Assembly: GCA_007753675.1 (NCBI GenBank)
Contig: CP036432.1
Coordinates: 7,504,233 to 7,568,232 of the forward strand
Source: Stieleria magnilauensis
GTDB lineage: Bacteria; Planctomycetota; Planctomycetia; Pirellulales; Pirellulaceae
Direction of reading: 5' to 3'
Length of the DNA: 64,000 bases
The translations under genes and the position numbers were made by a program. Under the pieces are notes generated by a model that was given only the letters and a program-made list of their open reading frames with translations, did not search any database and was not told the origin of the DNA. Positions 4,072-26,380 of the stretch are shown one piece after another (within the stretch, counting starts at the first letter, position 1; the number at the start of each line of letters is the position of its first letter).

Positions 4072-4117
4072 TTGGGGGAAGGAGTCGAATCTTCTTGGGT
4101 TGTCAGTGGAGAGCGGT

Positions 4118-5932: not shown

Positions 5933-5950
5933 GGTCAGACGGGTCGTTGA

Positions 5951-8227: not shown

Positions 8228-8239
8228 TGCGGTGGTCTC

Positions 8240-9952
8240 TTAAAGTGTGCCCGGCATGCGGTCGTAAACAACGCTTTGGAAATACAGCAGACGTTCCAGG
8301 TTTTCACCGGCGATCCAAACGGCGGCCGACAGCGCGGCACAGCCCGCACCGACCAGGGGCAAAAACGGACACAACATGAACGCCAGCCCGGCCAGCAGCG
8401 TGGCGACGACGGCACTGAAGTTTCTCATCCGCAACGTCTCGCCGAGATGCTGATGCACCAGCCGCCGCGAACGCCGGTCATAGGGATCCTCGGAACCGTC
8501 AGGGGCGCGATACAACCGACGTTCACGCGTCCATTTCCACCAGCCCGCAACGGCACCGGCCAAGCACAACAACGCGGCGGTGACGCCGAATCCGGTCAAC
8601 GCAAACACGACCGCCGCGACGATCGGTCCGCAGGTCAGCGACGTGCCGAAGAAACGCGGCAACGTTCGCCCGCTTCGCCAAGGCCGCCGCTTGGTGGCGA
8701 TGTAAATCATCGCGCTGCAATACAACCCCGCCAGCCCGACCGGAATCGACGCGACCAGCAACGCCCGTCCGGCCCAAGCGGGGATCCATTCGGTCGGAAT
8801 CCATTGTTGGATCGATGTCGGGATCCAATCCCAGACCACCGGCAGCAACAGCAGCGCGATGGCACCCGCCAGCAGCCCCATGAATTTGCCCAGGACGACG
8901 GCTTCGCGACTGAGCCAACTGGTTTTTAATCCCAAGAACACACGCCACATGCGAAGCGGTTGTCCGAGGTGCAGCGGTGCGATCCCGAGGCCCATGTTGC
9001 CGATCGCGAATGCCGAAAGCGCCGCGGCGATCGGCACGGCGTCAGGGACGCTGATTCCCACCGCGGTCAACACCAAGGTGGCGAGCGATTCGGCGATCAG
9101 AATGCCGACGGCGATCTGCGTCGCGACCAGCATCACGGCCAACGGCCAATGACTTTCGGCAACCTCGTCGACGTTCTCGTCTTGGGGACGTGTCAGCGCG
9201 GGATCGAGCGAGGTTTCCGCAACATAACGTGTGGTCGGTCGCGTGATGACTGACGACGGTGACGAGGGGACGAGCGTGTCTTGCCCGGCAACTTCGACAT
9301 CCCCGGTGGGAACCACGGTGATGCGAATCGCCTCGTTCGGACAGGATTGAACGCAGGCCGGTGCTTCACCAACGCTCAATCGTTGGTGGCACATGTCACA
9401 CTTGCGAACGATGCCCAAGCGATCGCTGTATTGCGGCACTTCGTAGGGGCACATCATCGTGCAGTATTTGCATCCGATGCATTGGTCGTCCAAGTGGCGC
9501 ACGATCCCCGTGACCGGGTCTTTGTCGTAGGCCTTGACCGGGCACCCGTTCAGGCATCCGGGGTCTTCGCAGTGGTGGCAGGCGGTGGTGACATGTTGGA
9601 TCGCGGCGGCGTCGGCATAATCGGGATCGCCGATCAGCAGCGTCCCGACTCGGCGCCAGGATTCGTCTTCCTCCAATCCGTTCAGCGTGTGGCAGGCCAC
9701 CACGCAGGCTTTGCATCCGCTGCACGCATTCAGATCAACTTCGAAGGCGAATTGTTCGTTCGGTCCTGGGGCCGTCGCCGGCAACAGGCTGCGATAGTAT
9801 TTTTCTTGTGCCGGTGCGGTCGTCGTGCCGGACGACTCGTGGTCGGTGTGCCAGTCGCTGAACTGTTCGACGGCGCTGAGCTGTTGTTGCTCATGCAGCA
9901 GTTGCCCGACCAGTTCGGGTTGTCGGTTGACGACGGGAAGCATAGTGCTCAT
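8240..9952 (-). CDS. DmsB-DmsC fusion: four-cluster ferredoxin plus membrane anchor
   Basis: A 570-residue fusion. Residues about 65-240 form a DmsB/NrfC-type ferredoxin with four cysteine blocks: CSGCKACVVAC, CHHCEDPGCLNGC, CIGCKYCTMMC and the fourth with CDMCHQRL plus CVQSC. Residues about 270-560 are hydrophobic with around eight membrane segments, resembling the DmsC/NrfD quinol-oxidising anchor. The family passes electrons from menaquinol to a molybdoenzyme. The gene lies 15 bp after the GAF gene and 12 bp before narB, so it is the obvious partner of the nitrate reductase. Having a quinol-linked module beside an assimilatory reductase is unusual, since known partners are ferredoxin, flavodoxin or an NADH flavoprotein. 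Confidence 0.85.
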   Translation of the reverse strand: MSTMLPVVNRQPELVGQLLHEQQQLSAVEQFSDWHTDHESSGTTTAPAQEKYYRSLLPATAPGPNEQFAFEVDLNACSGCKACVVACHTLNGLEEDESWRRVGTLLIGDPDYADAAAIQHVTTACHHCEDPGCLNGCPVKAYDKDPVTGIVRHLDDQCIGCKYCTMMCPYEVPQYSDRLGIVRKCDMCHQRLSVGEAPACVQSCPNEAIRITVVPTGDVEVAGQDTLVPSSPSSVITRPTTRYVAETSLDPALTRPQDENVDEVAESHWPLAVMLVATQIAVGILIAESLATLVLTAVGISVPDAVPIAAALSAFAIGNMGLGIAPLHLGQPLRMWRVFLGLKTSWLSREAVVLGKFMGLLAGAIALLLLPVVWDWIPTSIQQWIPTEWIPAWAGRALLVASIPVGLAGLYCSAMIYIATKRRPWRSGRTLPRFFGTSLTCGPIVAAVVFALTGFGVTAALLCLAGAVAGWWKWTRERRLYRAPDGSEDPYDRRSRRLVHQHLGETLRMRNFSAVVATLLAGLAFMLCPFLPLVGAGCAALSAAVWIAGENLERLLYFQSVVYDRMPGTL

Positions 9953-9967
9953 TGCGTTTCTCTTCCC

Positions 9968-10819
9968 TTACAGCAACAACGTCAGGATATTCGTCATGCG
10001 ATCTTGTTCAAAAAACGGGATCGCGACACCTTTACAAGGCGATCCACCGCGGAAGGGACGACCCGAGTAAACGATGTCGGGATCCTCGCTGATCGTGGCG
10101 ACACCGGACGTGTAGGCCAGACCGGGAAGCGTGCCTTCCAACGGTACGGTCTGGTCGACCTCGTACATCAGCGATTGTTCCAGGCGTTGATAGGCGCGCG
10201 ATTCCAACAGCAAGTGGTCCTCGGCGCACCGCCAGACCTCGTACCCGCGAGCGATCGGGGCGGAGTCGGAGCTGATCAGAACGGCCGTCGCCAGAAAGTC
10301 TTCGCCGAAGACCGGGAGTCCGATCGCGACTTGCAACGATTCGGCGGACGCACCGGCGGCACGCAGGAAGCCGGGATGACTGGGAAGGTTGTCGTGGATG
10401 ACAAAGCTGAGGTTGCGCCAAACCTGTCCGGGCAATCCCATGCCCTTTTCGAAACGCACGAACGAGCTGACGTTTTGGAATCGATCCAGCGGACCGTAGT
10501 AGCCCTGCGTGAGGTTCAGATCATCGAATTCGCTAATCGGCTGCCAGATCTCCATCACCCCGACGGTCTCGTCGCTGGCGCTGCCGACCCAAACGATCAC
10601 TGAAGCGATCTCTTCGCAGCGATAGATGGGAACGCACATCGCGACCGCGTCTGCTTCGCCCTCGACGGACTGTTTGATCGTGGGCAATCCTGTCTCGAGC
10701 GAGGCGGCGATCGCGCGATCGGCGACCGGGATCGAGCAAGTTGGTGACGCACCGCTGTCGTCGATCTCCAACACGATCATGTTGGTCAAGAACGAATGAT
10801 TAGATGTGGCTGTGATCAT
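9968..10819 (-). CDS. GAF-domain protein of the nitrate operon
   Basis: A 283-residue soluble protein. The centre (about 130-220) reads like a GAF domain: FEKGMGLPGQVWRN, then FLRAAGASAESLQVAIGLPV and a following strand ATAVLISSD. The N-terminal part (VAMCVPIYRCEEIASVIVWV) and the C-terminal part (SPCKGVAIPFF) may form additional GAF-like half-folds. No catalytic or DNA-binding domain is visible. It lies between an ATPase gene and the DmsBC fusion with spacings of 21 and 15 bp. GAF domains bind small ligands, so a sensing or regulatory role in nitrate uptake or reduction is plausible but not demonstrated. Confidence 0.75.
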   Translation of the reverse strand: MITATSNHSFLTNMIVLEIDDSGASPTCSIPVADRAIAASLETGLPTIKQSVEGEADAVAMCVPIYRCEEIASVIVWVGSASDETVGVMEIWQPISEFDDLNLTQGYYGPLDRFQNVSSFVRFEKGMGLPGQVWRNLSFVIHDNLPSHPGFLRAAGASAESLQVAIGLPVFGEDFLATAVLISSDSAPIARGYEVWRCAEDHLLLESRAYQRLEQSLMYEVDQTVPLEGTLPGLAYTSGVATISEDPDIVYSGRPFRGGSPCKGVAIPFFEQDRMTNILTLLL

Positions 10820-10840
10820 AGTGTTCCTACGGCTTCGCGA

Positions 10841-11692
10841 TTAAACGCCGACCGCTTCGGGCTCCTGCTCGGCTTGTTTTTTCGCCTCCAACGCTTCCGC
10901 ATCGGCTTTTAATTTCTTGTGGTCTTGGTCCTCGAGGAACTGAATCATGTCGCCCCGCAAGTCGTAGTACTGGGGATGATCGAGGACTTCGGCGCGGACC
11001 CTTGGTCTGTCAAACGGCATTTCAAACACCTTGCCGACGCGTGCCCGCGGACCGTTGGTCATCATCACGACCCTGTCGCTCATGAACAGCGCTTCGTCGA
11101 CATCGTGCGTGATCATCAACGTGGTGACTTTGTCGCGGACGAGGATCTCCAACAGGATTTCTTGCAGTTCCATCCGGGTGAGCGAGTCGAGCATTCCGAA
11201 CGGTTCGTCCAACAGCAACATCTTCGGTTTCAAGGCAAACGCCCGCGCGATCCCGACGCGTTGCTGCATGCCCTGGCTGAGTGCCGAGGCCCGCGTGTGG
11301 AGGCTATTGCCGAGACCGACTAGGGTCAGGTAGTACCCGGCGATGTCGTGCCGTTGGGCCTTGGTGCCGTGCGGATAAACCTGGTTGACGCCCAGCAGCA
11401 CGTTCTCCATGGCCGTCATCCATGGCATCAAGCATGGCGATTGAAAGACCACGCCACGGTCCGGACCCGGCCCTTCGATTTCGTGGCCGTCGATGACGAT
11501 GCCGCCGTCGCTGATCGGGTTGAGTCCGGCGGTCATGGTCAACACGGTGCTTTTACCGCACCCGGAATGGCCGAGCAGACAGATGTACTCGCCTTTCGCC
11601 ATGTTCAAGTTGAATTCTTCGACAATGACCGCGGGCCCATTGGGCGTGTCGTAGGTCTTGCCGAGACGAAACATTTCTACATAACCGGCCAT
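10841..11692 (-). CDS. nrtD: Nitrate ABC transporter ATP-binding protein (NrtD-like)
   Basis: A 283-residue ABC ATPase with Walker [10 protein letters not shown] (about 42-50), signature [14 protein letters not shown], Walker [13 protein letters not shown] and the H-loop THDVDEA. It belongs to the nitrate/sulfonate/taurine group of importers. The C-terminal tail (about 250-283) is charged and alanine-rich ([20 protein letters not shown]). It lies 21 bp upstream of the GAF gene and 245 bp after the other ATPase gene, with a palindromic repeat between them. Assignment to nitrate is by operon context. Confidence 0.88.
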
Positions 11693-11937
11693 GGGTCCGC
11701 CTTGTGGGGTTCTGTGGTTGTTCGTGTTGGTGTGTGGAAGGAGTCAAGCCGGTACGGGGCCGGATGACAGGCGGGAAACCTTTCCCGCGGGAGTCAGCCC
11801 AATGCCACTTGCTTTGGCACGACAGGCGTTAGCGGCACGGCGCGAGCCGTCCGATTTGACCGTGAAAGACCGGAGGGCTCGCGCCCTGCCGCTAACAAAA
11901 GTTCCCCGGTTGGCGTGAAAGTAAGTGGCATTAATGA
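11693..11937. repeat. Long imperfect palindromic repeat between the two ATPase genes
   Basis: The 245-bp gap is largely filled by a 132-bp nested inverted repeat at 11801-11932. The outer 15-nt arms (11801-11815 and 11918-11932) differ at one position, and a second pair of about 26-nt arms (11828-11853 and 11871-11896) differs at two. It would fold into a very long hairpin in the transcript. It resembles the dispersed palindromic elements elsewhere in this window and may dampen expression of the distal operon. Confidence 0.7.
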
Positions 11938-12870
11938 TTAACCGGCCCGTCCGCGAGGAACTCGCAGACTTCGCGGTTGCAGTTCGGGTAATTCGATGGG
12001 CGGCGCTTCGGACGCCAACGCTTCGTCGTCACGCGACTTCTGTCGCACGGCGACCAGGTAATTGGTGACCGCGTTTCGCAACCCCTTGAAGGTCTCGTTG
12101 TGGTTCAGCGCGGTCTTGTCTCTGGGACGCTCCAGCTCCACCGAAAATGCCGGGCCGAGCGATGCGTTGGGTCCCGGGTTCAGCGGGACAATCCGATCGG
12201 CCAACAAGATCGCTTCGTCGACGTCATTGGTGATCAGCAAGCATGTCTGCCGTTCTTCTTCCCAGATCTTGAGGATCTCTTCCTGCAGCACGCTACGGGT
12301 CAGGGCATCGAGTGCGGACAATGGTTCATCGAGCAGCAGAACGTTGGGTTTCATCGCCAGGGTTCGGGCCAACGACACCCGTTGACGCATCCCACCGGAC
12401 AACTCGTGGGGACGACGATGCACGGCGTGTGACAAGCCGACCATTTCAATGAATTTTTCGACATGGTCGCGTCGCTCGCCGCGTGACCAATGCTTGAACA
12501 CTCGATCGACCGACAGGGCGATGTTGCCGCGAACGGTCAGCCAGGGCAGCAGCGAATAGTTTTGGAACACGATGCCGCGTTCTTGGCTCGGCCCCTTGAT
12601 GATTTCGTTGTCCATCACGATCTCGCCACTGTCCGGGATCTCAAGTCCGGCCAGCAACTTGGTCAACGTTGTTTTTCCGCTGCCGGAGAAACCGACGATC
12701 GCCAGGAATTCGCCCTTGCGCAGATTCAGATTGATATTGCTGAGTACTTCGTTGCGCGTGACACCACTCCCATACCCTTTGCAGACCGCCCGCATGGAAA
12801 TCAGCGGGTCGGGCGGCGCGGGTCTGGCAATCGCTTTGGATCGGGGTCGATCAAGAACTGCGACGCTCAT
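11938..12870 (-). CDS. nrtC: Nitrate ABC transporter ATP-binding protein (NrtC-like, single-domain)
   Basis: A 310-residue ABC ATPase with Walker A GFSGSGKTT (about 60-68), Q-loop in VFQNYSLLPW, signature LSGGMRQRVSLARTLAM, Walker B LLLDEPLSALD and switch region TNDVDEA. Cyanobacterial NrtC carries an extra C-terminal NrtA-like domain; this protein does not, having only a proline/arginine-rich tail. The switch Asn replaces the more usual His (TND instead of THD), which could lower ATPase activity in this subunit and may make the two ATPases a non-equivalent pair. It lies 41 bp after the permease gene. Confidence 0.88.
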   Translation of the reverse strand: MSVAVLDRPRSKAIARPAPPDPLISMRAVCKGYGSGVTRNEVLSNINLNLRKGEFLAIVGFSGSGKTTLTKLLAGLEIPDSGEIVMDNEIIKGPSQERGIVFQNYSLLPWLTVRGNIALSVDRVFKHWSRGERRDHVEKFIEMVGLSHAVHRRPHELSGGMRQRVSLARTLAMKPNVLLLDEPLSALDALTRSVLQEEILKIWEEERQTCLLITNDVDEAILLADRIVPLNPGPNASLGPAFSVELERPRDKTALNHNETFKGLRNAVTNYLVAVRQKSRDDEALASEAPPIELPELQPRSLRVPRGRAG

Positions 12871-12911
12871 CGTTTTTCTGGGGGTGTGAGGATTCGAGAG
12901 AAAAGAATGGG

Positions 12912-14027
12912 TTAGGCAGCTTGCGGGTCACCGAAGCTGACCAGGTTCCGCATGAAGATCATGATTCGATCGAGCAACAGTCCGATCAAACCGATGATGA
13001 TCACGCTGAACGCGATGCGGGCGTAGGTCTGGCTGCTACCGTTTTGAAACTCGTCCCAGACGAACTTGCCCAAACCGGGGTTTTGGGCCAGCATGTCGGC
13101 GGCGATCAACACCATCCAACCGACACCCAAACTGATCCGCAGTCCTGCGAACATCAGCGGCAAACTGGCCGGCAGAATGATCTTGAACAGTTGTTGGCTC
13201 CAGGAAAGTTTCAGCACGCGAGCCACGTTCATGTAATCCTTGTCGACGCTTGCCACGCCGAGCGTGGTGTTGACCAGCGTCGGCCACAAGGAACACAACG
13301 AGACCGTGATCGCGGAAATCAAAAACGCTTTGTCGAAAAAGTTCTCGCCGGGTTTGGTGCCCGAGTAGGCCCAGACGATGATCAGGAAAGCCAGTGGCAA
13401 CCAAGCCAGCGGGCTAACCGGTTTGAAGATTTGGATGAAGGGTGTGAGTGCCGCGTTGCACCAGGGGCTCATGCCGCAGAGTACGCCGATCGGGACGGCG
13501 ATCAACGTCGCGATGGCGAATCCGACGAAGACGGTTTTCAAACTGGTGATGATCTGGTCGACGAACGTCGGGGCGCTCGACGGACGATAGTTGGCTGCTT
13601 GAACCGCTTTCTTCTTCAGCACCAAGGCGTTTGCCAGCAGTGTTTCCTTTCGCTCGCCGGTTGCCGATTCGGCCTGCTTGGTCACCGAGTTGGCTTGGGC
13701 CAGCAACGTGACCGCTTGCATCGTTTTTTCCTGCTTGACCTTCAGGTCCTCGGCACGCTGGGCCGAATGCATGGCGAACAATTCCTTGCCGGCCGTCCAG
13801 GTGTCGGTCGGGCTGGGCAGTTGCATGCTGTCGGTGACCACCGTGCGGGCGGCAGCCGACCACAGCAGCAGGAACACGGCGACGGCCGCGACGGGCAGGA
13901 CCACGAATTTCGCGATCCCTTTGAGTTGTTCTTTGACGTCTTCGCCGGCGAGCAGTCTGACGAACGGTTCCAGCGCGGGAAGCCCCGCGACGTCACAGAA
14001 CTTCAGTGCGTTTCCTCTCCAATTCAT
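12912..14027 (-). CDS. nrtB: Nitrate ABC transporter permease (NrtB-like)
   Basis: A 371-residue inner-membrane permease of the nitrate/taurine importer family. The C-terminal about 230 residues contain the transport core with helices and the ATPase-coupling EAA loop (YMNVARVLKLSWSQQLFKII). The protein is longer than usual family members (about 250-280). After a first membrane segment near residues 40-60 there is an insert of about 80 residues, hydrophilic and helix-prone (RAEDLKVKQEKTMQAVTLLA). The open frame continues upstream for 52 codons of proline/arginine-rich sequence with no domain, so the ATG at 14027 was preferred. Next in the operon are two ATPase genes. Confidence 0.85.
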   Translation of the reverse strand: MNWRGNALKFCDVAGLPALEPFVRLLAGEDVKEQLKGIAKFVVLPVAAVAVFLLLWSAAARTVVTDSMQLPSPTDTWTAGKELFAMHSAQRAEDLKVKQEKTMQAVTLLAQANSVTKQAESATGERKETLLANALVLKKKAVQAANYRPSSAPTFVDQIITSLKTVFVGFAIATLIAVPIGVLCGMSPWCNAALTPFIQIFKPVSPLAWLPLAFLIIVWAYSGTKPGENFFDKAFLISAITVSLCSLWPTLVNTTLGVASVDKDYMNVARVLKLSWSQQLFKIILPASLPLMFAGLRISLGVGWMVLIAADMLAQNPGLGKFVWDEFQNGSSQTYARIAFSVIIIGLIGLLLDRIMIFMRNLVSFGDPQAA

Positions 14028-14093
14028 ACGATTCGCTACAAGGTGGTTGGGTATAGGAGTGTGGGATGGTTTCAGTGTTCGGGATCCACGGCC

Positions 14094-14131
14094 GGGTCGG
14101 ACGTCTGGCACCGGACCGAGACGTCCGACCC
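14094..14131 (-). promoter_or_regulatory. Intercistronic stem-loop after the nitrate-binding protein gene
   Basis: A perfect 13-bp stem (14094-14106 with 14119-14131) closes a 12-nt loop, and a further CGGCC/GGCCG pair extends it. There is no T-run, so it is not a classical terminator. A hairpin after the binding-protein gene is a common way to stabilise its mRNA and produce more binding protein than permease. The remaining bases of the 219-bp gap show nothing else clear. Confidence 0.55.
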
Positions 14132-14246
14132 GAATGGCCGCTTCCCGAACATGCAACGGCGAGGCGGTCACCGCGGCATGCACATTTCAAGAGGCTTGGT
14201 CGGCGCGACCGACGTCCGTGCAACGTCGATCGCGCCGAAGGGTGAT

Positions 14247-15749
14247 TCACTGCTTCGCCAGCGATTCGGGATCTTTATTGCCGATCTCAAATCCGTTGAC
14301 GTAGCCCACCGGGTCTTTGGCGTCGTATCGAGTGCCATCGATGAATTCCGTCGTCGCAGCTCGGTAGCCGTCGTAGTCCTCGGCGGGAAAGTCTTCGGCA
14401 GACGCTTTGCCCTCGGCGACCAACATCGCCGCGGCCTTGCGATAGATTTCGGGTTTGTAGATCTCCTTGGCCGTTTCCGCGTACCAACTCGCGGGTTTGC
14501 CTTCGGTGATCTGGCCCCAGCGCCGCATCTGCGTCAAGAACCAGATGCAGTCGCTGTAGTGCGGGTAACTGGCGTAGTATTTAAAGAAGACGTTGAAGTC
14601 GGGCATCGGGCGGACGTCGGTTTCCTGGAACACGAACGTGCCGGTCATGCTGTTGTCGATCACATCTTCGTCCGCTCCGACGTAATCTTTCCCCGACAGA
14701 ATCTTGGCGGCTTCTTGGCGGTTGACCAGCACGCCGTTCTCATCGGTTGCGTCGAGCCATTTGCCGGCGCGGATCAAAGCCTTGATCACCGCGAGGTGCG
14801 TGTTGGGGTGTTTCTCGTCCCACTCTTTGGTCACGCCGAAGACTTTCTCGGGGTTGTTCTTCCAAATGTCATAGTTGGTGGTGACGGGAACACCGATGCC
14901 TTTGACGACGGCTTGTTGATTCCACGGTTCGCCGACGCAGTAACCGAGGATCGTCCCTGCTTCCAGCGTGGCGGGCATCTGGGGCGGCGGGGTCACCGAG
15001 AGCAACACGTCGGCGTCGACGGTCCCTTGGATGTTTTCTTCGGTGTACATCCCCGGATGAATGCCCGCGGCGGCGAGCCAATATCGAATTTCGTAGTTGT
15101 GCGTGCTGACGGGGAAAACCATCCCCATGTTGAAGTCCTTGCCCTCTTGCTTGTACGAATCAACGATCGGTTTGAGCGAGGTCGCGGGAATCGGATGCGG
15201 CGGGGTATCCGATTTCAGTGCCGGGTCATTCTCCTGCATCTGTTCCCAGATTTCATTGCTGACGGTGATCCCGTTGCCGTTGTAATCCAGGCTGTAGGCG
15301 GTGATCACGTGAGCTTGGGTGCCGAACCCGATCGTCGCACCGATCGGCTGACCGGCCAGCATGTGGGCGCCGTCGAGTTGGCCGTCGATCACTCGGTCCA
15401 GCAAAACTTTCCAGTTCGATTGCGCTTCGATTTCGACGTTCAGACCTTCTTCTTCGAAGTAGCCCTTCTCTTTCGCAATCACCAACGGGGCGCAGTCGGT
15501 CAGTTTGATGAAGCCGAATTTTAAGTTTGGTTTTTCGACGTCCAGTATTTCCATCACCGCGGCGCCGGCTTCGCTGTCGTCGCCTGGGGTGGTTTCAAGT
15601 TTCGCTGCGGCGGCTTCGAGGTCTTCCAAGGAGATGTTGGAATCAGAACAGCCGACCAGCAGGGTGCTAATCGAAATCAGCGTGCAAGAGAACAACGCTG
15701 TCGAGAACAGACGCCGCAAAAGTTGAGAGGGAACGGATTTCAAAGGCAC
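14247..15749 (-). CDS. nrtA: Nitrate-binding lipoprotein, NrtA/CmpA family
   Basis: A periplasmic substrate-binding lipoprotein for nitrate (or, in the CmpA branch, bicarbonate). The mature sequence begins the family fold at [20 protein letters not shown] and continues with a type-II binding-protein pattern ([17 protein letters not shown]). The signal peptide ends in the lipobox LLVGC. Two starts are possible: ATG at 15776 without a visible ribosome site, or the in-frame GTG at 15749 preceded by TGGGAG nine bases upstream; the latter is chosen and gives a more typical lipoprotein signal. The protein is about 500 residues, somewhat longer than the family. It is the first gene of the nitrate operon; nitrate is preferred as ligand from the downstream reductases. 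Confidence 0.87.
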
Positions 15750-15872
15750 TTGGATATACTCCCAGTGGAGAATCATGGAAAAGGTGTGGCATTTTCCGAT
15801 TCAGCCGCGCTTGGCATCGATGGGATGAATCAGAGACGCAGGACTACTGCATCGTCTGTCGGGGTGGGCGAG

Positions 15873-15887
15873 GCACGCCTTGTGCCA
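15873..15887 (-). promoter_or_regulatory. Candidate sigma-54 promoter for the nitrate operon
   Basis: On the minus strand the sequence TGGCACAAGGCGTGC has GG and GC separated by ten bases and matches the -24 element TGGCAC exactly; the -12 element is GTGC instead of TTGC. Transcription would start near 15861, about 110 bases before the GTG start of the binding protein. Because the motif is palindromic it also scores on the plus strand, but that start would be over 450 bp from the channel gene. Confidence 0.35.
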
Positions 15888-16332
15888 AAGCCGATGTCAA
15901 GATCGGGGGGGATCGACAACGTGAGGGAGGTGCGACACAGTGGCCGAGCAAGGTGGAACGATTCACCATAAAGCCAATTGGCGTGAATTCACTTGACAGG
16001 GTGTGGTGGTGGTGATCTGCACCCATTGCGAGCAGCTTCTTGGAGCCCCTGCCCAAGAATCGTGCGAGGGGATTGCTGCTCGTTCCTGAACGTTCGGCAC
16101 GCGACTTTAACGATTGTCGTGACTGTTCACGGTTCGAAAGATTCTTCACCAATCGACGTCATCGATGAGACGATAGAGCACGACATGACGCTCGGATTCG
16201 CCGGAGCCGACGCAGATGTTCACCTGGATGGATTGAAACCGATTGCGACAGGCGGTTGCACGGCTGGTTTCGACCCATCAGGGAGCTTGACATTTCATTC
16301 ATCGTCACCTTCATGGTGACTTACCGTTCCGT

Positions 16333-16342
16333 AAGGAAGGAG
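16333..16342 (+). promoter_or_regulatory. Ribosome-binding site fixing the channel gene start
   Basis: AAGGAAGGAG lies nine bases before the ATG at 16352. It rules out the longer open frame that begins at 16256. Its first bases pair with CTTAC at 16319-16323 in a possible small hairpin that could mask the site. Confidence 0.7.
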
Positions 16343-16351
16343 TCCTACGTG

Positions 16352-18082
16352 ATGCCTCCACATCAACACGCTCGCCGGCGCACCCTCGCGTTGGCGCTAC
16401 TTGCCGGCTTGACCGCCGCCCCCGCGGCATTCGCCGAAACCCCTCACGGCCTCGTCGAGACCGTCGTGCTCGACGCGACCGACACGCCCCAAGGCAACGT
16501 CCAACTCGTCGTCGACGCACAGTACGGTGATGAACAGTACGATGGCGCACGGTACGATGGTGCACAGTACATCGCATTTCAGGATGAGCCCGCGCCACTG
16601 GTGGATGCCCCCCAAGCGGCCCCGCCGGAGCCCGTCGCGATCGACGAGCCGGCTGCCTCGGCGACGGTCGATGCCGCTTCGATGGCCGCGCCCGTGGTGA
16701 CGAGTTGCAATTGCTGCACCACGCCGTGTTGCACCAAGGCCAAGAAAGCCGCCGCGACCGCAGCGATGAAAAGTGCTTATGCGGGTGTGTTCTACGCCAA
16801 CAACTTTAGCTATCTCAACGACCCCTGCTACGACGGCCCCTCGTTCTTTGGCGACTCGCTCAAGGGCATGATGGGCGGCAAGTTGGACATCGGTGGTGAA
16901 GCGCGGATGCGTTACCACTACGAGAACAATCACCGCGGTCTCGGGCTGACCGGGGTCGACGACGCGTTCTTCCTGACCCGCTACCGCATGTTCGCGAATC
17001 TGCGAATCAACGAGTACTTCCGTGCCTACGGTGAGTACCTGTACGCGGATTCGGGCGGCGAGACCTTCAACAACCGACCGATCGAAGAGAATCGCGGTGA
17101 AATCCAAAACCTGTTCTTGGACACCAAGCTGACCGAATCGCTGAATCTGCGCTTGGGACGGCAAGAATTGTTGTTCGGCGACGAGCGATTGATTTCACCA
17201 TTGGATTGGGCCAACACCCGACGCTCGTTCCAGGGCGTTCGCGGAACGTACAAGGGCGATGCCTGGACCGTGGACGGATTCTTCGTCAACCCGCTCAATC
17301 GCAATGCCGCCAACGAAAGCAAGATCGACGACGCCAACGAAGATGTCGACTTCTATGGCGTTTACGCCAGCAACAGTGGGACCGCTCTGGGGACCGTTGA
17401 CGCCTACTACCTGGGATTGAACAACCAGGTGCTCGATTTCGACTACCACACGCTCGGATCTCGCGTCGCCGGGGCGTCCGACGCCGGCGTGCTCTATAAC
17501 GTGGAAGGTGGCGTCCAGTTCGGTTCCAACAGCCCCGGCTATGGCGACCACAGCGCCGGATTCTTTACCGGCGGCTTGGGCAAGCAGTTGAGCATCTGCA
17601 CCGGTTGTGGCGAGTGGAAACCGACCGTTTGGTTCTGGTACGACTGGGCGTCCGGCGGTGACGATTTCCCGGCCGCACGTGGCGACGACAGTTTCGACCA
17701 CCTGTTCCCGCTGGCTCACAAGTACCTGGGTCTGATGGACTTGTTCGCACGTCGAAACATCAATGACGTCAACTTCCAGTTCATCACGCCGGTTTTGGGT
17801 GACAAGGTCAAGCTGTTGGTGTGGTACCACCACTTCTTCCTGGATCAAGCGACCACGCCGTATGGTGTGACCGAGGCACCGTTCAATGCCGTCGCCGCCG
17901 CCGGGGACAAGGAGCTGGGCCAGGAGATCGATTTGGTGCTGACCTGCGGAATCAACCCGCGGACCAATGTCCAGATCGGCTATTCGCACTTCCGCGCCGG
18001 CGACTACTACGACACCACGGCGGGAGTACCGACCAACGCCGACGCCGATTTCTTCTGGACGCAGTTCCAGTGGCGATTCTAG
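16352..18082 (+). CDS. Outer-membrane beta-barrel channel of the alginate-export fold
   Basis: A 576-residue exported protein. A signal peptide (about 1-27, LALALLAGLTAAPAAFA) is followed by an acidic, alanine/proline-rich spacer, a cysteine cluster CNCCTTPCC near residues 116-124, and then a long barrel-forming region from about residue 170 rich in alternating aromatic and polar residues. RMRYHYENNHRG, RYRMFANLRIN and LRLGRQELLFGDERLISPLD match the alginate-export outer-membrane family. Members of this family are often general anion or nutrient channels. Divergent position beside the nitrate importer suggests outer-membrane nitrate entry. The cysteine cluster is unusual for a porin and might bind metal or crosslink. 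The rho-independent terminator follows directly. Confidence 0.8.
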   Translation: MPPHQHARRRTLALALLAGLTAAPAAFAETPHGLVETVVLDATDTPQGNVQLVVDAQYGDEQYDGARYDGAQYIAFQDEPAPLVDAPQAAPPEPVAIDEPAASATVDAASMAAPVVTSCNCCTTPCCTKAKKAAATAAMKSAYAGVFYANNFSYLNDPCYDGPSFFGDSLKGMMGGKLDIGGEARMRYHYENNHRGLGLTGVDDAFFLTRYRMFANLRINEYFRAYGEYLYADSGGETFNNRPIEENRGEIQNLFLDTKLTESLNLRLGRQELLFGDERLISPLDWANTRRSFQGVRGTYKGDAWTVDGFFVNPLNRNAANESKIDDANEDVDFYGVYASNSGTALGTVDAYYLGLNNQVLDFDYHTLGSRVAGASDAGVLYNVEGGVQFGSNSPGYGDHSAGFFTGGLGKQLSICTGCGEWKPTVWFWYDWASGGDDFPAARGDDSFDHLFPLAHKYLGLMDLFARRNINDVNFQFITPVLGDKVKLLVWYHHFFLDQATTPYGVTEAPFNAVAAAGDKELGQEIDLVLTCGINPRTNVQIGYSHFRAGDYYDTTAGVPTNADADFFWTQFQWRF

Positions 18083-18414: not shown

Positions 18415-18849
18415 TTAGCCGGCCGCTGCCGTGGACGCATCGCTTTCATGTGCGGCGTCCAACATCACGTTGCTGAGCGTGACGTAGGTGATCGTCCAGG
18501 CCTGCTTGACCTCGTCGGTAAAGGCCTCGGCAAGCCCTTGCTGGAGCGTCCAGAGCAACGCCTCGCCGACCGTCTGGTAGCTTTCATCGGGGACGCCGTA
18601 CTTCACGTGCCGCCGCCCCAGTTCTTGGACCGCCGGCAGGATGTCTTCCAGTTTGGTCAGTGACGTGACGGCCAAATTTAACGTCGCCATCAGCTTCTTG
18701 CCCTGCTCTTTCATGTCACCCTTGAAGAGCGGTTTCAGGGAGGGATCGAGCTCAAACAGGCGGCCATAAAACAGTTCTGCGGCTTGCTCGGAAATCGGTT
18801 TTACCTTTTCCCAAGAAGACTGAACCAAATCGATTTGCTGAGGAGTCAT
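18415..18849 (-). CDS. Single-domain globin
   Basis: A 144-residue haem globin. The proximal haem ligand is the His of RRHVKYGV (about residue 85), the B10 Tyr is in LFYGRLF, and a Gln (KEQGKKLM) lies at the distal E7 position. This Tyr/Gln distal pocket is that of flavohaemoglobin and Vitreoscilla-type globins, which bind oxygen and detoxify nitric oxide. No reductase domain is attached. It is the last gene of the cytochrome cluster, 87 bp after the haem lipoprotein gene, which makes nitric-oxide scavenging during nitrite metabolism a reasonable hypothesis. Confidence 0.88.
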   Translation of the reverse strand: MTPQQIDLVQSSWEKVKPISEQAAELFYGRLFELDPSLKPLFKGDMKEQGKKLMATLNLAVTSLTKLEDILPAVQELGRRHVKYGVPDESYQTVGEALLWTLQQGLAEAFTDEVKQAWTITYVTLSNVMLDAAHESDASTAAAG

Positions 18850-18936
18850 ACGTCGTTCACTTGTGGTTACGAGTTAATAACAGAGGGTGGGATGCATCCA
18901 TGCGATTGATGTAGCGAAGGTTGGGTTGAGTGGCGA

Positions 18937-19554
18937 TTAAAGTGGGACGCGGACCAGCACACCGCCCATCACGTCGTCTTTGCCGAATTCGGGATAGTCG
19001 TCGCCGCGATTGGGGTGTTCGTTGTGGCAAGACCAGCAGGCCTCGGCGACGGCACGGTCGGGGTAGACGGCGACGAAGTACTTTTGGTCGCCGAGTTCTT
19101 CTTCTCCGTAAAAGTTCTCACCGGGGTTGTCGCTCAGGTAATCGAGCGCTGTCTGTTCCAACTCAGTCTTGGCCTGGTGCTGTTCGTTGAGCGGCCATTT
19201 ACTGCGAAGGGCGTAGGTGAAACCGGCTTCCGGATTTTCGTCGACCAACTCGGCACCCATGCGGAACATTTGCGCCGGCAACGGAATCGAGTTCTCGGTG
19301 TCTTCCCAGTATTCGAACGCTTTGACGGGGGCGTCCTGTTTTTGCAGATTCGTCACGACGTGCGTCGCGTACACGGTCCGGTCGGCCATCATCACCGCAT
19401 GCACGCCGTCGGCAAATTGTTGGGGCGTGATTCCACCGGACGGTGTCGAACTCGCTTCGCTGCTGGTGCAGCCCGGTAGCGCGGCCAGTGGCAGTAGCGT
19501 GCACACCGAGAGTGCCGCCGCGGCGAGTTGTTGGTTGCGATTCAATTTCATCAT
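18937..19554 (-). CDS. Tll0287-like (DUF3365) haem lipoprotein
   Basis: A 205-residue protein with a lipoprotein signal (lipobox LPGC, about residues 26-29) and one c-type haem site CWSCH near residue 174. The middle resembles the DUF3365/Tll0287 fold, a PAS-like haem domain found in signalling proteins and periplasmic proteins (ALRSKWPLNEQH, FVAVYPDRAVAEACWSCHN). It should be anchored in the periplasm or outer-membrane inner face. It follows the multihaem cytochrome by 46 bp. It could be an electron carrier or a redox or gas sensor; neither can be decided from the sequence. Confidence 0.8.
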   Translation of the reverse strand: MMKLNRNQQLAAAALSVCTLLPLAALPGCTSSEASSTPSGGITPQQFADGVHAVMMADRTVYATHVVTNLQKQDAPVKAFEYWEDTENSIPLPAQMFRMGAELVDENPEAGFTYALRSKWPLNEQHQAKTELEQTALDYLSDNPGENFYGEEELGDQKYFVAVYPDRAVAEACWSCHNEHPNRGDDYPEFGKDDVMGGVLVRVPL

Positions 19555-19600
19555 GAAAATCCTTCAAGGGAACGAGGCAAAAAAAGAGAGAAAAACAGGG

Positions 19601-21019
19601 TCATGGTTTTTGAAGACGCGCCTCGCGTTTGGCCCGACGCTGCTCGAACCACTGGTGCGCCATCTGCACACTTTCGATTCGTTCGGTCGGGGCATCGCCG
19701 AAGCACGATGTGATCGATCGGGGATCGGCCAACGCGCTGAGTGAATATTCCAGTCCGTGGCAGTGGGTGCAGACCTGTCGGGCCATCGTTTCATTGGGAC
19801 GCAGGCTCGCGTTCTGGTCATGGTTGACCCAGATCCCGGTCTCGCCGTCGATCCGGGGCAGATGACAGGTGGCACAGGAAACGCCGCTGCCGACGGCACC
19901 GCTGCCGGCCAATTCGTCCTGCCACAGCGTGGCGTGTGAGCTGTCGCGGTAAGCCAACGAATGGTCATCGGCGTGACACTGAAGACAGGCTTCCGCGGCG
20001 GCGAATTGCGTGTCGAATCGATGGCCGGGATGACAGGCGTTGCAATCGAGTTTGGCATGGGCCTGGCCGGCATGCATCGGCAATCTCGCCTGGTCGGGCG
20101 TCATCGCGGGCATCCCCACGGCCAACCGCATTCCGTGTTTGCCGGTTTGGAAGCTGGCGACTTGGTCGGCATGGCATCGCTGGCAGCTTTCCATGGCGAC
20201 AGTCTCGGACCATTGTGAATCATCCTTCCCGCCGTGGCAGTGCGTGCAGTTGACGCCTGCGAGTGCGTGGGCGGTTGTCGCCCAGTCGTCCAGCACGCGT
20301 TGATCGACGGCTTCGGCGGGAGGATGGTCGGCTTCATCGATCCCCAGCGGGCGGTCAGGACGAAAGACGCCCGAGAGCGATGCAGCGGTCGACCGTCGGG
20401 GCAGTGAAGCGAGTTCTAGATGATCGGGCTGTCCGTGATGATCATCGAGGTACTTTTCATAAAGCGCACGGTTGTCGTGGTAATTGTGACACCCCGCGGT
20501 CGCACAACTGTCGTACGCCATGTCGCGGTGGCTGGGGCGTGAATCGGCGACCTCTTGATGACAATGCCAACAGTAATCGGCCGGCATGGTCAGCCCCATC
20601 GTGAGCGTCTGTTCGGGCACGTGTTCTTGATGGCAACTCAAGCAGTTCTGTGCGTCGAGCACCGCCAGTCGCTCGGCGTTGGTCGGGTCGCGGAATTTCT
20701 TTGCCGGGTGTGTGTCCTTAGCAAGATCCAACTGTTCGCCATGACAGCGGATGCAGGCATCTTGCATGACGTCGGATCCACTCGGCCCGTCCGCCGATCG
20801 CCCCGGGTCATGACAGGCGTTGCAGTCCAATTCGATCTGATAGTGTCCGTGCGTCGTTTCACCGGGCAGCCAAGCGGTCGAGCTGATCGAAGCGGGAGCG
20901 ACCAACCCGAACCCGAAGTAGACGGCGATCGAGAGATTGATCGCCGCCCACGTCAACCATTTCGGTGCGTGGGGAGACTGGCGAAACGCGTTCCAGATCG
21001 ATCGGATTTGAATGCTCAT
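19601..21019 (-). CDS. Membrane-anchored multihaem cytochrome c, 11 haem sites
   Basis: A 472-residue protein with an N-terminal membrane segment (about 22-48) and ten CXXCH motifs (CNACH, CIRCH, CLSCH, CWHCH, CTHCH, CQRCH, CNACH, CLQCH, CATCH, CTHCH), plus one expanded CX4CH site, CATAGCH. Numerous extra His residues can supply distal ligands. The open frame extends upstream into the preceding gene; the ATG at 21019, one base after that gene's stop region, is used instead. Multihaem proteins of this size move electrons in the periplasm or reduce nitrogen or sulfur oxides. Its tight coupling to the FAD/cytochrome-b fusion suggests that is its electron partner. It does not match the NrfA haem pattern (no CXXCK). 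Confidence 0.88.
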   Translation of the reverse strand: MSIQIRSIWNAFRQSPHAPKWLTWAAINLSIAVYFGFGLVAPASISSTAWLPGETTHGHYQIELDCNACHDPGRSADGPSGSDVMQDACIRCHGEQLDLAKDTHPAKKFRDPTNAERLAVLDAQNCLSCHQEHVPEQTLTMGLTMPADYCWHCHQEVADSRPSHRDMAYDSCATAGCHNYHDNRALYEKYLDDHHGQPDHLELASLPRRSTAASLSGVFRPDRPLGIDEADHPPAEAVDQRVLDDWATTAHALAGVNCTHCHGGKDDSQWSETVAMESCQRCHADQVASFQTGKHGMRLAVGMPAMTPDQARLPMHAGQAHAKLDCNACHPGHRFDTQFAAAEACLQCHADDHSLAYRDSSHATLWQDELAGSGAVGSGVSCATCHLPRIDGETGIWVNHDQNASLRPNETMARQVCTHCHGLEYSLSALADPRSITSCFGDAPTERIESVQMAHQWFEQRRAKREARLQKP

Positions 21020-21021
21020 GA

Positions 21022-23133
21022 TCAATCGCTGAACCAATAAAAACCGAGCACATGAAGCGCGATCAAGATCGGCAACGGCCAGGTCACCCAGAGGTGAATG
21101 CGGGTCAATCGGGGACGCCAGCGGCGAATCCACATCCCCAGATTTCCCGACGCGCGGCTCTCCATGCTGCTGGCGATTCCGGCCACCGCGCCCAACGCCG
21201 CGGCGGACAAGAAGCAGACCGCGAGCAAGAAATTCAGGTTGTGTCCCAGCCGCATCCCGGTGTGAATGGCGACGCCGAACAGCACGGCCATGCCCAGCAC
21301 GCCGTGCGCGGCCCGCCAAAACCCGTACGAGCCCCAATGAAACCACGTCAGGCGTTTGCGGAGCGAAAAGACGAGCCCCAGCAGCGTCAAGCCGACCAAG
21401 GTGAATCCACTGACCTGGCGACCGAGATCCCCGCGCCAAATTGTCTCGATGTTTCGCCACGACGATTGCACGCTGTCAGTCAGCGGGATCGGCGGAACGA
21501 CCAGCCAAGCCAGACTGGCCAACAACGCGATCACGCTGGCCACCCACATTGTCTTGGCCCCGGGGACCGTGATCGGTTCCGCCGCTGCGGCGCCCGCCAA
21601 CTGGCCGACCAGACCGCGACAGCTGCCGCAGGCGGTGGACGCACCGCATGCCGACGCGATTTGTTCGACGTCTTGTTTGCCGTCATCGATCAATTCGACG
21701 ATCGTTGATTTGCTGACCGACAAGCACGAACACACGATCGCGTCGGCCGGCCAATCGGTGACCGGCATCGCCCCGCCGGGGGACCACGGGGATCCCGTGT
21801 TTAAGAATCGTTTGCGTTGCCAAGGCCACAGTCGCGCCCGTTTGGCGATCGCCTGTCTGACTTGTGGCAATTCATCCCACGGGCCGACACACGACGCGCC
21901 GACGATTCGCCCCCGCTCGGTCAACAGTTTTCGATATCCCGATTCGTCATGGTGTGTCACTACGTTGCCGCCGGCAAATTCACCGATCGTCGTGCCCAGC
22001 GTGGCGACTTGCACCCCCATCAGTTTCAGTTCTGCCGATTCGTCGGCACCCGCGAACGTCGTCTCACCGCCGGCCAGTCGCTGGGCCAAGACATCGGCCA
22101 TGCGAAAGCAAGGTGCCGCGAGTCCGAAGACGTGGTCGTGGAACGAGGCGCACTCGCCAATCGCAAAGATGTTCGGATCGCTGGTCTGCAAACACTCGTT
22201 GACCTTCACGCCGCGGCGCGGTCCGATCTCAAGCCCCGCTGATTCGGCCAGCATGTCGTTGGGACGCACGCCTGCGGCGATGACCAGCAAGTCGACGTGC
22301 AGATCACTTGCGTTGGAAAACTCAATGCAAATCCCGTTGTCGACGACAGCGATCGATTCGGTGCGGCGGACGAGTTGAACGTCCACGCCCATGCTTTGAA
22401 TCTTGCGTTTGAGTAGCCCGGCCGCGTCGGCATCGAGTTGCCGCGGCATCAATCCCGGTGCCATCTCAATCACGCTGACCGACAAACCCAGATCCATCAG
22501 GATTTTGGCGGCTTCCAATCCCAGCAAGCCTCCGCCGATCACGCCGCCGCGACGCACGTTTCGTGACGCGCAGTAGTCGCGAATCGATTCCAGGTCGGCG
22601 ATGGTGCGATAGACGAAAACTCCTTCGCTATCAGATCCCTTGATCGGAGGCACGAAGGCGTGGGATCCGGTCGCCAACACCAATTGGTCGTAGCTATAGA
22701 ACGAGCCGTCCTGATCGAACACCATGCGCTGCTCGCGATCGATCCGCTCGATGCGACGCCCTGTGATCAGTTCGATGCGATGTTTTTGGTACCAATCCCG
22801 CGGTGCCAACAGCAGTTCATCGGCCGATCGACCATCAAAGTAAGTCGACAAGTTGACTCGGTCATACGCCGGCAGCGGTTCGTCACCGATGATCGTGACG
22901 TCATAGCCCTGGATCACGCCGCTGCGGACGAGGCGATCGCAGAGGCCAAAGCCCGCCATTCCGCCTCCGACAATCACCAACCGGGGGCGTTGTGGGGGCG
23001 TGACGTGACGCTGGGCGGCGGTTGGACCAACCTGTTGACGATTCGCGAGAGGGGCGTTCAGCGCGGCAACCATGTCCGGGTGGAGGTGAAACCGGGGGAA
23101 GAACCGAGGAGATCGACTTCGGTTGACCTCCAT
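21022..23133 (-). CDS. NirB-like FAD/NAD oxidoreductase-BFD-membrane cytochrome b fusion
   Basis: A 703-residue fusion. The N-terminal part (about 50-370) is a pyridine-nucleotide disulfide-type flavoprotein like NirB/rubredoxin reductase: FAD motif VIVGGGMAGFGL, NAD motif GGVIGGGLLGLEAA and a second FAD motif IFAIGECAS. Next is a BFD-like [2Fe-2S] domain with CSCLS and CGSC (about 495-535). The siroheme part of NirB is absent. Instead, about residues 545-703 form five membrane segments with His residues in AAHGVLG, AIHTGMRLGH, RIHLWVTW and ALHVLGF, suitable for b-type haem. The start at ATG 23133 fits a 37-base leader from the candidate promoter; an upstream TTG at 23157 is possible. The likely role is electron transfer between NAD(P)H and the periplasmic cytochrome c. 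Confidence 0.85.
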   Translation of the reverse strand: MEVNRSRSPRFFPRFHLHPDMVAALNAPLANRQQVGPTAAQRHVTPPQRPRLVIVGGGMAGFGLCDRLVRSGVIQGYDVTIIGDEPLPAYDRVNLSTYFDGRSADELLLAPRDWYQKHRIELITGRRIERIDREQRMVFDQDGSFYSYDQLVLATGSHAFVPPIKGSDSEGVFVYRTIADLESIRDYCASRNVRRGGVIGGGLLGLEAAKILMDLGLSVSVIEMAPGLMPRQLDADAAGLLKRKIQSMGVDVQLVRRTESIAVVDNGICIEFSNASDLHVDLLVIAAGVRPNDMLAESAGLEIGPRRGVKVNECLQTSDPNIFAIGECASFHDHVFGLAAPCFRMADVLAQRLAGGETTFAGADESAELKLMGVQVATLGTTIGEFAGGNVVTHHDESGYRKLLTERGRIVGASCVGPWDELPQVRQAIAKRARLWPWQRKRFLNTGSPWSPGGAMPVTDWPADAIVCSCLSVSKSTIVELIDDGKQDVEQIASACGASTACGSCRGLVGQLAGAAAAEPITVPGAKTMWVASVIALLASLAWLVVPPIPLTDSVQSSWRNIETIWRGDLGRQVSGFTLVGLTLLGLVFSLRKRLTWFHWGSYGFWRAAHGVLGMAVLFGVAIHTGMRLGHNLNFLLAVCFLSAAALGAVAGIASSMESRASGNLGMWIRRWRPRLTRIHLWVTWPLPILIALHVLGFYWFSD

Positions 23134-23181
23134 GGCCAGACCCGCCTTGCCTAGCAAGGGCCGACCGAGTCACCGCCGCAC

Positions 23182-23196
23182 GCAATCGTTGCGCCA
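23182..23196 (-). promoter_or_regulatory. Candidate sigma-54 promoter for the cytochrome cluster
   Basis: On the minus strand, TGGCGCAACGATTGC matches the sigma-54 consensus with one substitution in the -24 element and a perfect TTGC -12 element, GG and GC ten bases apart. The predicted start near 23170 gives a leader of about 37 bases to the ATG at 23133. The window also encodes a sigma-54 activator. Confidence 0.5.
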
Positions 23197-26214: not shown

Positions 26215-26380
26215 CGCATGCCAATGGCTGGCATCCCTCCGCGACCCTCTCAAACACGCAAAATTCGCGTCGTGGCCGGGAAAAGCTTATGAAATAGCTT
26301 GAAACGTCGAGTGAAAGGTGGGCTCTTTCCAACCCGTGAGCAACGTTTTGGCTTCTGACGTTCCGTCGAGACCCACCGTG

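Follow-up and report, generated by a model that had tools for sequence, protein, structure and literature searches.

A four-gene set linked to nitrate assimilation and predicted to carry electrons across the membrane in Stieleria magnilauensis and other bacteria

Membrane domains that hold two b haems are known from cytochrome b561-like and ferric-reductase-like proteins, for example MsrQ with Fre, or NOX. In Bradyrhizobium, a globin and a flavoprotein encoded in a nitrate-assimilation operon protect against the nitric oxide (NO) that arises from assimilatory nitrate reduction (PMC4724949). Among Tll0287-type proteins, a membrane protein that is linked to HAMP and lacks the Cys ligand freed NO slowly, in a sensor-like manner, and a stand-alone Cys-ligated protein freed it fast, even after the Cys was changed to Ala (PMC12889525). 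The available main text of that paper does not discuss genomic context, and the words 'operon', 'multiheme' and 'globin' are absent from it. The Uet system has tetrahaem and trihaem partners (PMC10734462). Here we analyse four genes in a 64,000-nucleotide (nt) stretch of Stieleria magnilauensis contig CP036432.1 (the window), from a genome that is a single contig of 10.77 Mb. They lie on the minus strand at 18415–23073 (Table 1) in the transcription order flavoprotein-cytochrome b fusion, 11-haem cytochrome, Tll0287-type lipoprotein, globin. The reading that we favour is a sigma-54 (RpoN)-type, nitrate-assimilation-linked transmembrane electron conduit that would keep a periplasmic haem reduced against nitrite-derived NO; it is a tentative one, nearly evenly poised between right and wrong. 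In the literature searched, which left subscription papers mostly outside its coverage, the gene set was undescribed and had no named system, and neither a search for Rhodopirellula transcript data nor passages on Thiobacillus, Idiomarina and Gallionella cytochromes yielded anything on it.

Linkage of the four genes across bacteria

A profile of the cytochrome was scanned against 84,980 species genomes, which gave 443 candidate stretches and 386 relatives; the closest named ones, from Rhodopirellula sp. SM50 and Stieleria sedimenti, are 96% identical to the window protein. Gene linkage was counted in the best 80 of the 386, compared by tblastn, and neighbours in the 66 of these loci that have at least 2.3 kb before and at least 4 kb after the cytochrome. 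The membrane domain of the fusion was found no more than 0.5 kb upstream of the cytochrome, on the same strand, in all 80 loci (no more than 0.2 kb in 79). The lipoprotein was present in 79, the exception (L102) being a contig that ends 18 bases past the cytochrome. It lies downstream in 72 loci and upstream of the fusion in 7, so the gene order is not rigid. A globin was found in 54 of 66 loci; in 47 it is a 3-on-3 globin, encoded on the same strand in 46 of them, and in 7 a truncated haemoglobin, one of these matched by Pfam Bac_globin. No locus had both kinds over the threshold; one (L112) has a weak truncated-globin-like open reading frame (ORF) beside its 3-on-3 globin. The earlier note on this DNA, made from the letters alone, had drawn the four genes as one cluster, and they do stay together in other genomes. 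As a side observation, four of the seven truncated-haemoglobin loci (L075, L083, L089, L108) have, following the globin, an FNR-type reductase with Fer2, flavin adenine dinucleotide (FAD) and nicotinamide adenine dinucleotide (NAD) domains, which is likely a globin reductase.

By their record titles, 77 of the 80 loci, many of them in metagenome bins, belong to eight named phyla: Pseudomonadota (31), Planctomycetota (27), Verrucomicrobiota (9), Poribacteria (4), Lentisphaerota (3), and Acidobacteriota, Myxococcota and Nitrospirota with one each; 3 were unassigned. Linkage over at least eight phyla rules out chance adjacency of the four genes. On a tree of 54 cytochromes the phylum changes 8 times, one more than the minimum of 7; the tree largely follows the phyla, and the gene set therefore looks old. 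Spread on plasmids was considered and rejected, as none of 72,556 plasmid records matched at E 1e-30.

The set was also met when genomes were searched one phylum at a time. The cytochrome occurred in 4 of 294 Planctomycetota genomes, namely the window's own and three others (G121, G057, G220), all three of which have membrane domain, cytochrome, lipoprotein and globin; genes of G121 and G057 had seeded the search, and the G220 stretch appears to be that of locus L086. In an even draw of 299 genomes from the phylum of G460, the genome of locus L083, 9 had a hit to the membrane-domain profile at E <= 1e-6; the hit was partial in 6 and spanned almost the full domain in 3, one of which is G460 itself. 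The other two of these 3 (G592, G611) are outside the 80 loci and also carry cytochrome and lipoprotein, and in G750, the one of the 6 partial hits that was inspected, no gene of the set was seen.

Predicted cofactors of the four proteins

The fusion had been described in the earlier note as a NirB-type FAD/NAD module and BFD [2Fe-2S] domain joined to a five-helix membrane domain, with no siroheme domain. Domain matches and a structure model agree on every part of this. NirB is the best NCBIfam match (residues 60–527, 436 bits against a cut-off of 578) but ends at position 471 of a 794-position profile that it enters at position 1, and the siroheme/4Fe-4S nitrite reductase domain NIR_SIR was absent in the Pfam domain search. 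Foldseek matched the model best to 3nta_A (E 2.2e-34); the best 50 matches listed were flavoproteins or their like and left the membrane half uninformed. Membrane helices are predicted at residues 534–553, 577–602, 611–633, 641–666 and 671–709, the last broken near Pro694. The predicted local distance difference test (pLDDT), as 10-residue means, is 75–97 in these helices, mostly 86–97. The five helices make up the last 182 residues, and the model is a confident one (mean pLDDT 88.2, predicted template modelling score 0.72). The longest ORF reaches back to a TTG at 23157; translation probably starts instead at Met29 (23073), since a 96%-identical relative (L034) begins there and residues 1–51 have pLDDT under 50.

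Conserved residues were counted in aligned sets of 51 fusions, 54 cytochromes, 37 lipoproteins and 31 membrane domains, all of them selections of our own making. The BFD cysteines 476, 478, 510 and 513 are invariant in 51 of 51 fusions. Similarly, His618, 632, 688 and 702 are invariant in all 51 fusions and in all 31 membrane domains, and were kept at 96% in an unselected cluster of 78 rows that includes NirB paralogues. The earlier note had called the domain His-rich and b-type, and two invariant pairs of possible haem-ligating histidines bear it out. Each pair is spaced by 14 residues, the spacing of stacked b haems in known di-haem proteins. From these pairs, the prediction that the membrane domain is a di-haem b conduit is well supported. 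Lys601 and Arg602 are invariant in 51 of 51 fusions and Arg681 is near-invariant; because of these basic residues, the loops between helices 2 and 3 and between helices 4 and 5 are placed in the cytoplasm by the positive-inside rule. With this topology and the model, His618 and His688 would hold the inner haem, and His632 and His702 the outer one. The window domain is weakly similar to its nearest Pfam families, with 16.3 bits against DUF4405 (cut-off 26.7) and 10.3 bits against Ni_hydr_CYTB, the prokaryotic cytochrome b561 family (cut-off 30.1). At E <= 1, 21 of the 31 membrane domains matched DUF4405 (best 5.8e-5) and 9 Ni_hydr_CYTB (best 1.7e-6), and among PDB sequences there was no match to the membrane domain.

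Two variant loci bear on the electron input. In L124 the same membrane domain stands behind BFD, FAD_binding_6 and NAD_binding_1 domains, an FNR-type arrangement and not the NirB-type module. In L088 it stands alone, as a protein of 173 amino acids (aa) encoded between a major facilitator superfamily (MFS) transporter, NarK-like in our reading, and the cytochrome; the row runs NasA, MFS transporter, cytochrome b domain, cytochrome, lipoprotein, with NirB on the other strand. The variants thus point to a core of membrane b domain, cytochrome and lipoprotein with an exchangeable electron input. The exchange of one module for reduced NAD or its phosphate (NADH, NADPH; NAD(P)H for either) against another supports NAD(P)H as the usual donor.

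The cytochrome gene starts 2 nt past the stop of the fusion, almost on it as had been noted, and the protein is, as proposed, membrane-anchored with 11 haem sites: 10 CXXCH and one CX4CH motif, behind a single N-terminal helix predicted to be an inner-membrane anchor. Exactly 11 C-x(2-4)-CH sites are present in 54 of 54 aligned cytochromes. The other strictly invariant histidines also number exactly 11: His59, 104, 133, 164 and 181 near the first five haems, and His251, 295, 333, 353, 362 and 400 near the last six; His194 is near-invariant. With 11 such histidines for 11 haems, all of the haems look bis-His and no open haem is apparent, and the simplest reading is that the cytochrome would act as a wire.

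The third protein was correctly recognised earlier as a c-haem Tll0287-type lipoprotein. It matches PF11845 (E 6.7e-17), has a CXXCH motif and, as judged by eye, a lipobox (LPGC); profile and single-sequence searches of PDB sequences gave no match to it. Over the 37 aligned lipoproteins, Cys is invariant nowhere but in CXXCH, so the canonical axial Cys ligand was not found. The fast NO release by the published Cys-to-Ala variant makes this lack at most suggestive of NO binding. Elsewhere, the window genome has five Tll0287-like domains. One is in a 532-aa protein (L132) whose long C-terminal part resembles, by eye, a signalling phosphatase; another PF11845 member (L142) has an extra Cys at about the expected ligand place. 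The fourth protein, also named correctly as a globin, is of the 3-on-3 single-domain kind (E 3.3e-16) with 3wfw, 3s1i and 3ubc as its closest solved relatives. It groups with single-domain globins, and an alignment of 45 members shows its Tyr28, Gln49 and His81 to be invariant.

Promoter, neighbours and co-occurrence with nitrate assimilation

A sigma-54-like promoter had been suggested before the fusion gene. The site in question, TGGCGCAACGATTGC at 23196 on the minus strand, has 9 of the 11 consensus letters; eight minus-strand sites in the 64-kb window score 9 of 11, so it is weak if taken alone. Across loci, positions −250 to +30 of the fusion ORF were scanned for at least 8 of 11 letters of the sigma-54 −24/−12 consensus, in the 64 of the 80 loci where the start of the fusion ORF was available with 200 or more bases in front; the starts of L035 and L037 are estimated, and ORF starts may differ from true starts. 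A site was found in 40 of 64, compared with 38 of 416 other ORFs there (Fisher p 1.9e-20), which were called mechanically at 250 aa or more and are not proven genes, and with 26 of 223 ORFs of shared families (p 1.8e-15), both p values being inflated by related sequences. Random 280-base pieces had one in 348 of 3000. At 9 or more letters the counts were 24 of 64 and 10 of 416. The hits span the Planctomycetes-Verrucomicrobia-Chlamydiae group and Pseudomonadota, and in L082 and L105 the site falls at the ORF start itself. The suggested sigma-54-like site is real, and such sites are enriched, at 40 of 64 loci as against about 9–12% in the three controls.

Nitrate-assimilation genes lie on the same strand of the window. 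They encode a CysJ-like flavoprotein, adjoining NirA; NasA, adjoined by a DmsB-DmsC-like subunit; a GAF-like protein; two ABC ATPases, a permease and an NrtA-like protein. At 5951–9952 (−) the DmsB-DmsC-like protein, a fused iron-sulphur/membrane subunit of 570 aa, precedes NasA, which is of the assimilatory type and by eye has no obvious export signal; such a subunit would tie assimilatory nitrate reductase to the quinone pool. The GAF-like protein (9968–10819, −) has a Pfam match under the cut-off and lies within the row, and a family with a GAF-domain representative (L087) occurs at 5 relative loci beside ABC transporter genes. The NrtA-like gene has a sigma-54-like site of its own, TGGCACAAGGCGTGC at 15873–15887 (−), with 9 of 11 letters, about 110 nt 5' of its longest ORF; the transporter may thus be regulated together with the conduit.

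In flanks of up to 10 kb, NrtA-like genes were found at 23 loci, NasT-like at 12, NasA at 9 and NirA at 2, with at least one of these at 29 of 66. In the family of the window's species (149 genomes), the cytochrome is present in 19 and NasA (E <= 1e-150) in 60. NasA accompanies 18 of the 19 carriers compared with 42 of 130 non-carriers (p 1.7e-7, uncorrected for kinship); the one exception, G353, is a bin of 82% completeness. Within this family the cytochrome is nearly confined to NasA genomes. Consistently, the 4 carriers among the 294 phylum genomes all rank in the top 25 by strength of NasA match, a threshold picked after the list was seen. All 32 carrier genomes picked from the 80 as isolates or larger assemblies have a NasA-like match (best E <= 1.9e-95), such a match at 1e-60 being common anyway (191 of 294 genomes). 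We conclude that a link of the gene set to nitrate assimilation is well supported. Of the nitrogen-oxide metabolism proposed in the earlier note, the nitrogen link stands, on promoter (40/64), neighbours (29/66) and NasA (18/19), and the actual job of the proteins is a matter of interpretation.

Table 1. Positions of the gene set, its parts and its context in the window
Feature	Positions	Strand	Details
Fusion gene: NADH/FAD module, BFD [2Fe-2S] domain and five-helix di-haem-b membrane domain (predicted)	21022..23073	-	
Pyr_redox_2 FAD/NAD(P)H part	22129..22983	-	fusion residues 59-343; E 1.9e-54
BFD-type [2Fe-2S] domain (Fer2_BFD)	21607..21738	-	fusion residues 474-517; E 1.9e-8
Membrane domain of the fusion	21022..21570	-	five helices; His pairs H618/H632 and H688/H702
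11-haem cytochrome	19601..21019	-	N-terminal membrane anchor
Tll0287-like (DUF3365) c-haem lipoprotein	18937..19554	-	CXXCH
Single-domain globin	18415..18849	-	Tyr28/Gln49/His81 invariant
Sigma-54-like -24/-12 promoter site TGGCGCAACGATTGC	23182..23196	-	~120 nt 5' of likely fusion start codon
Nitrate-assimilation genes	2455..15776	-	functional context, outside conduit
Alginate_exp-family outer-membrane porin	16256..18082	+	context

Elsewhere in the window, a predicted membrane protein of 2050 aa with an internal run of HGPVL-type repeats is encoded at 26318–32470 (+).

Possible functions and comparison with known systems

In the conduit that we favour, electrons would pass from cytoplasmic NADH to FAD and the BFD [2Fe-2S] centre, from there to the inner and then the outer b haem of the membrane domain, and on through the membrane-anchored, all-bis-His cytochrome to the c haem of the periplasmic lipoprotein. 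This periplasmic haem would be kept reduced to bind or reduce nitrite-derived NO during nitrate assimilation, and the cytoplasmic globin would deal with NO on the other side of the membrane. A path from NAD(P)H through a membrane b-type centre to periplasmic haems had been suggested before, and it fits the anatomy and the positive-inside topology. The cofactors, the direction and order of electron flow, and NADH over NADPH are what the anatomy suggests; more weakly, we infer that nitrite or NO handling at the periplasmic face is the most likely purpose. An Rrf2-type regulator, of the family of the NO sensor NsrR, was found at 6 of 66 loci.

Several observations weigh against this reading. No globin was found in the examined flanks of 12 of 66 loci, nor in the 18 and 12 kb fetched from G592 and G611, and L088 has no NADH module beside its membrane domain. 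Nitrate-assimilation genes flank only 29 of 66 loci, and the family includes 42 genomes with NasA but no cytochrome, so that any dependence is one-way. Hmp, the usual NO dioxygenase, is present in 10 of 19 carriers and 25 of 130 non-carriers, and within NasA genomes in 9 of 18 carriers and 8 of 42 non-carriers. Replacement of Hmp by the cluster would have been expected to leave fewer Hmp genes; carriers have more, so the cluster is no Hmp replacement. The NO-binding protein of PMC12889525 is a membrane sensor, unlike the lipoprotein here, and a missing Cys would not by itself make the lipoprotein an NO binder. An all-bis-His cytochrome, as predicted, would offer no obvious catalytic site. A more specific claim is distinctly doubtful: that NADH, by way of the b-haem/11-haem wire, keeps the Tll0287-type lipoprotein reduced, and that this lipoprotein is the terminal reductase for NO (or nitrite) in a hitherto undescribed periplasmic defence against nitrogen oxides, part of nitrate assimilation in at least eight phyla.

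The same conduit could serve another purpose, a reductive step in the periplasm or at the outer membrane for the acquisition of nitrogen or of a metal, with NO incidental; the substrate might be ferric iron or something else required for growth on nitrate as nitrogen source. We consider this unlikely, but less so than the other alternatives. In its favour, a trans-membrane reductase would be wired in this way, 20 of 66 loci are flanked by a gene for an Alginate_exp-type porin and 16 by one for a class I cytochrome c, and haems that are all bis-His are found in general electron wires. However, a metal reductase leaves the globin at 54 of 66 loci (7 of another class) unexplained, and no iron-uptake gene is among those 14 of the recurrent neighbour families that were annotated.

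Flow might also run inward, from a periplasmic source through cytochrome and b haems to FAD/[2Fe-2S] and cytoplasmic nitrate or nitrite reduction. The closeness of the FAD-BFD module to the NirB input module would suit this, as would L088, with its free membrane domain in a NasA row. It is nevertheless improbable: none of the annotated neighbours was recognised as a periplasmic source of electrons, NasA and NirA of the window already adjoin the DmsB-DmsC-like and CysJ-like genes, and the module swap in L124 points to NAD(P)H as donor.

Harder still to credit is a periplasmic nitrite or hydroxylamine reductase of the NrfA/ONR/HAO kind that would give ammonium for assimilation. The cytochrome profile matched best, among solved structures, an eight-haem nitrite reductase (E 2.5e-11) and NrfA, a weak similarity in the C-terminal half, and Foldseek placed HAO 6t5e first for a model of pLDDT 80 (E 8e-4, template modelling score only 0.28). 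All haem sites, however, end in CH and none in CK, and there are as many extra invariant histidines as haems. NirA is present in 14 of 19 carriers, and among the other five G121 has a NirB-like match in a 1031-aa frame, so assimilatory nitrite reductase is not generally replaced. Finally, an extracellular electron transfer conduit of the Uet or Mtr type is highly improbable, since, although Uet also has an 11-haem cytochrome (PMC10734462) and the L082 carrier is titled as a biocathode bin, no other six-frame stretch with at least 3 CXXCH motifs was found in the examined DNA of the 80 loci, and the predicted inner-membrane anchor and the nitrogen-type promoter speak against it.

Nitrate assimilation is usually drawn as cytoplasmic, and the gene set would mean an overlooked extracytoplasmic redox arm: a trans-membrane wire, predicted to hold 13 haems (2 b, 11 c), alongside nitrate assimilation in several phyla, among them Planctomycetota, Verrucomicrobiota, Lentisphaerota and Pseudomonadota. 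It would give stand-alone Tll0287/DUF3365 proteins and orphan single-domain globins a concrete, testable role. Should it act as a valve for NO or nitrite, it would also bear on the release of NO and N2O by marine bacteria.

Parts of the set resemble described systems and depart from them. With Uet (undecaheme electron transfer) the window shares an 11-haem cytochrome, a likeness of haem count, and window-type loci differ in having no further multihaem protein in the examined flanks, compared with the available account of Uet (PMC10734462). The cytochrome has weak profile similarity to the octahaem nitrite reductase/NrfA/HAO family, from which its 11 haems, apparently all bis-His, and its membrane anchor set it apart. 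PF11845, CXXCH and the stand-alone lipoprotein form are shared with Tll0287/sCache_heme proteins as far as PMC12889525 was available; the canonical stand-alone protein there has an axial Cys, whereas the window's family has no invariant one. The electron-input modules of NirB and NasB, like the fusion, combine an FAD/NAD(P)H domain with BFD [2Fe-2S], but continue into a siroheme domain where the fusion has its membrane cytochrome b domain. Cytochrome b561-like and ferric-reductase-like domains likewise have two His pairs spaced by 14 on two helices and pass NAD(P)H electrons outward across the membrane, as predicted for the window; the window domain differs in lying under the Pfam cut-offs and in having another donor module and another periplasmic partner. 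In the available parts of PMC4724949, Flp of Bradyrhizobium japonicum is a typical cytoplasmic oxidoreductase, described with no membrane haem b domain, multihaem cytochrome or Tll0287-type lipoprotein. Yet in its narK-bjgb-flp-nasC locus, as in the window, a single-domain globin and an NAD(P)H flavoprotein are encoded close together near genes of nitrate assimilation.

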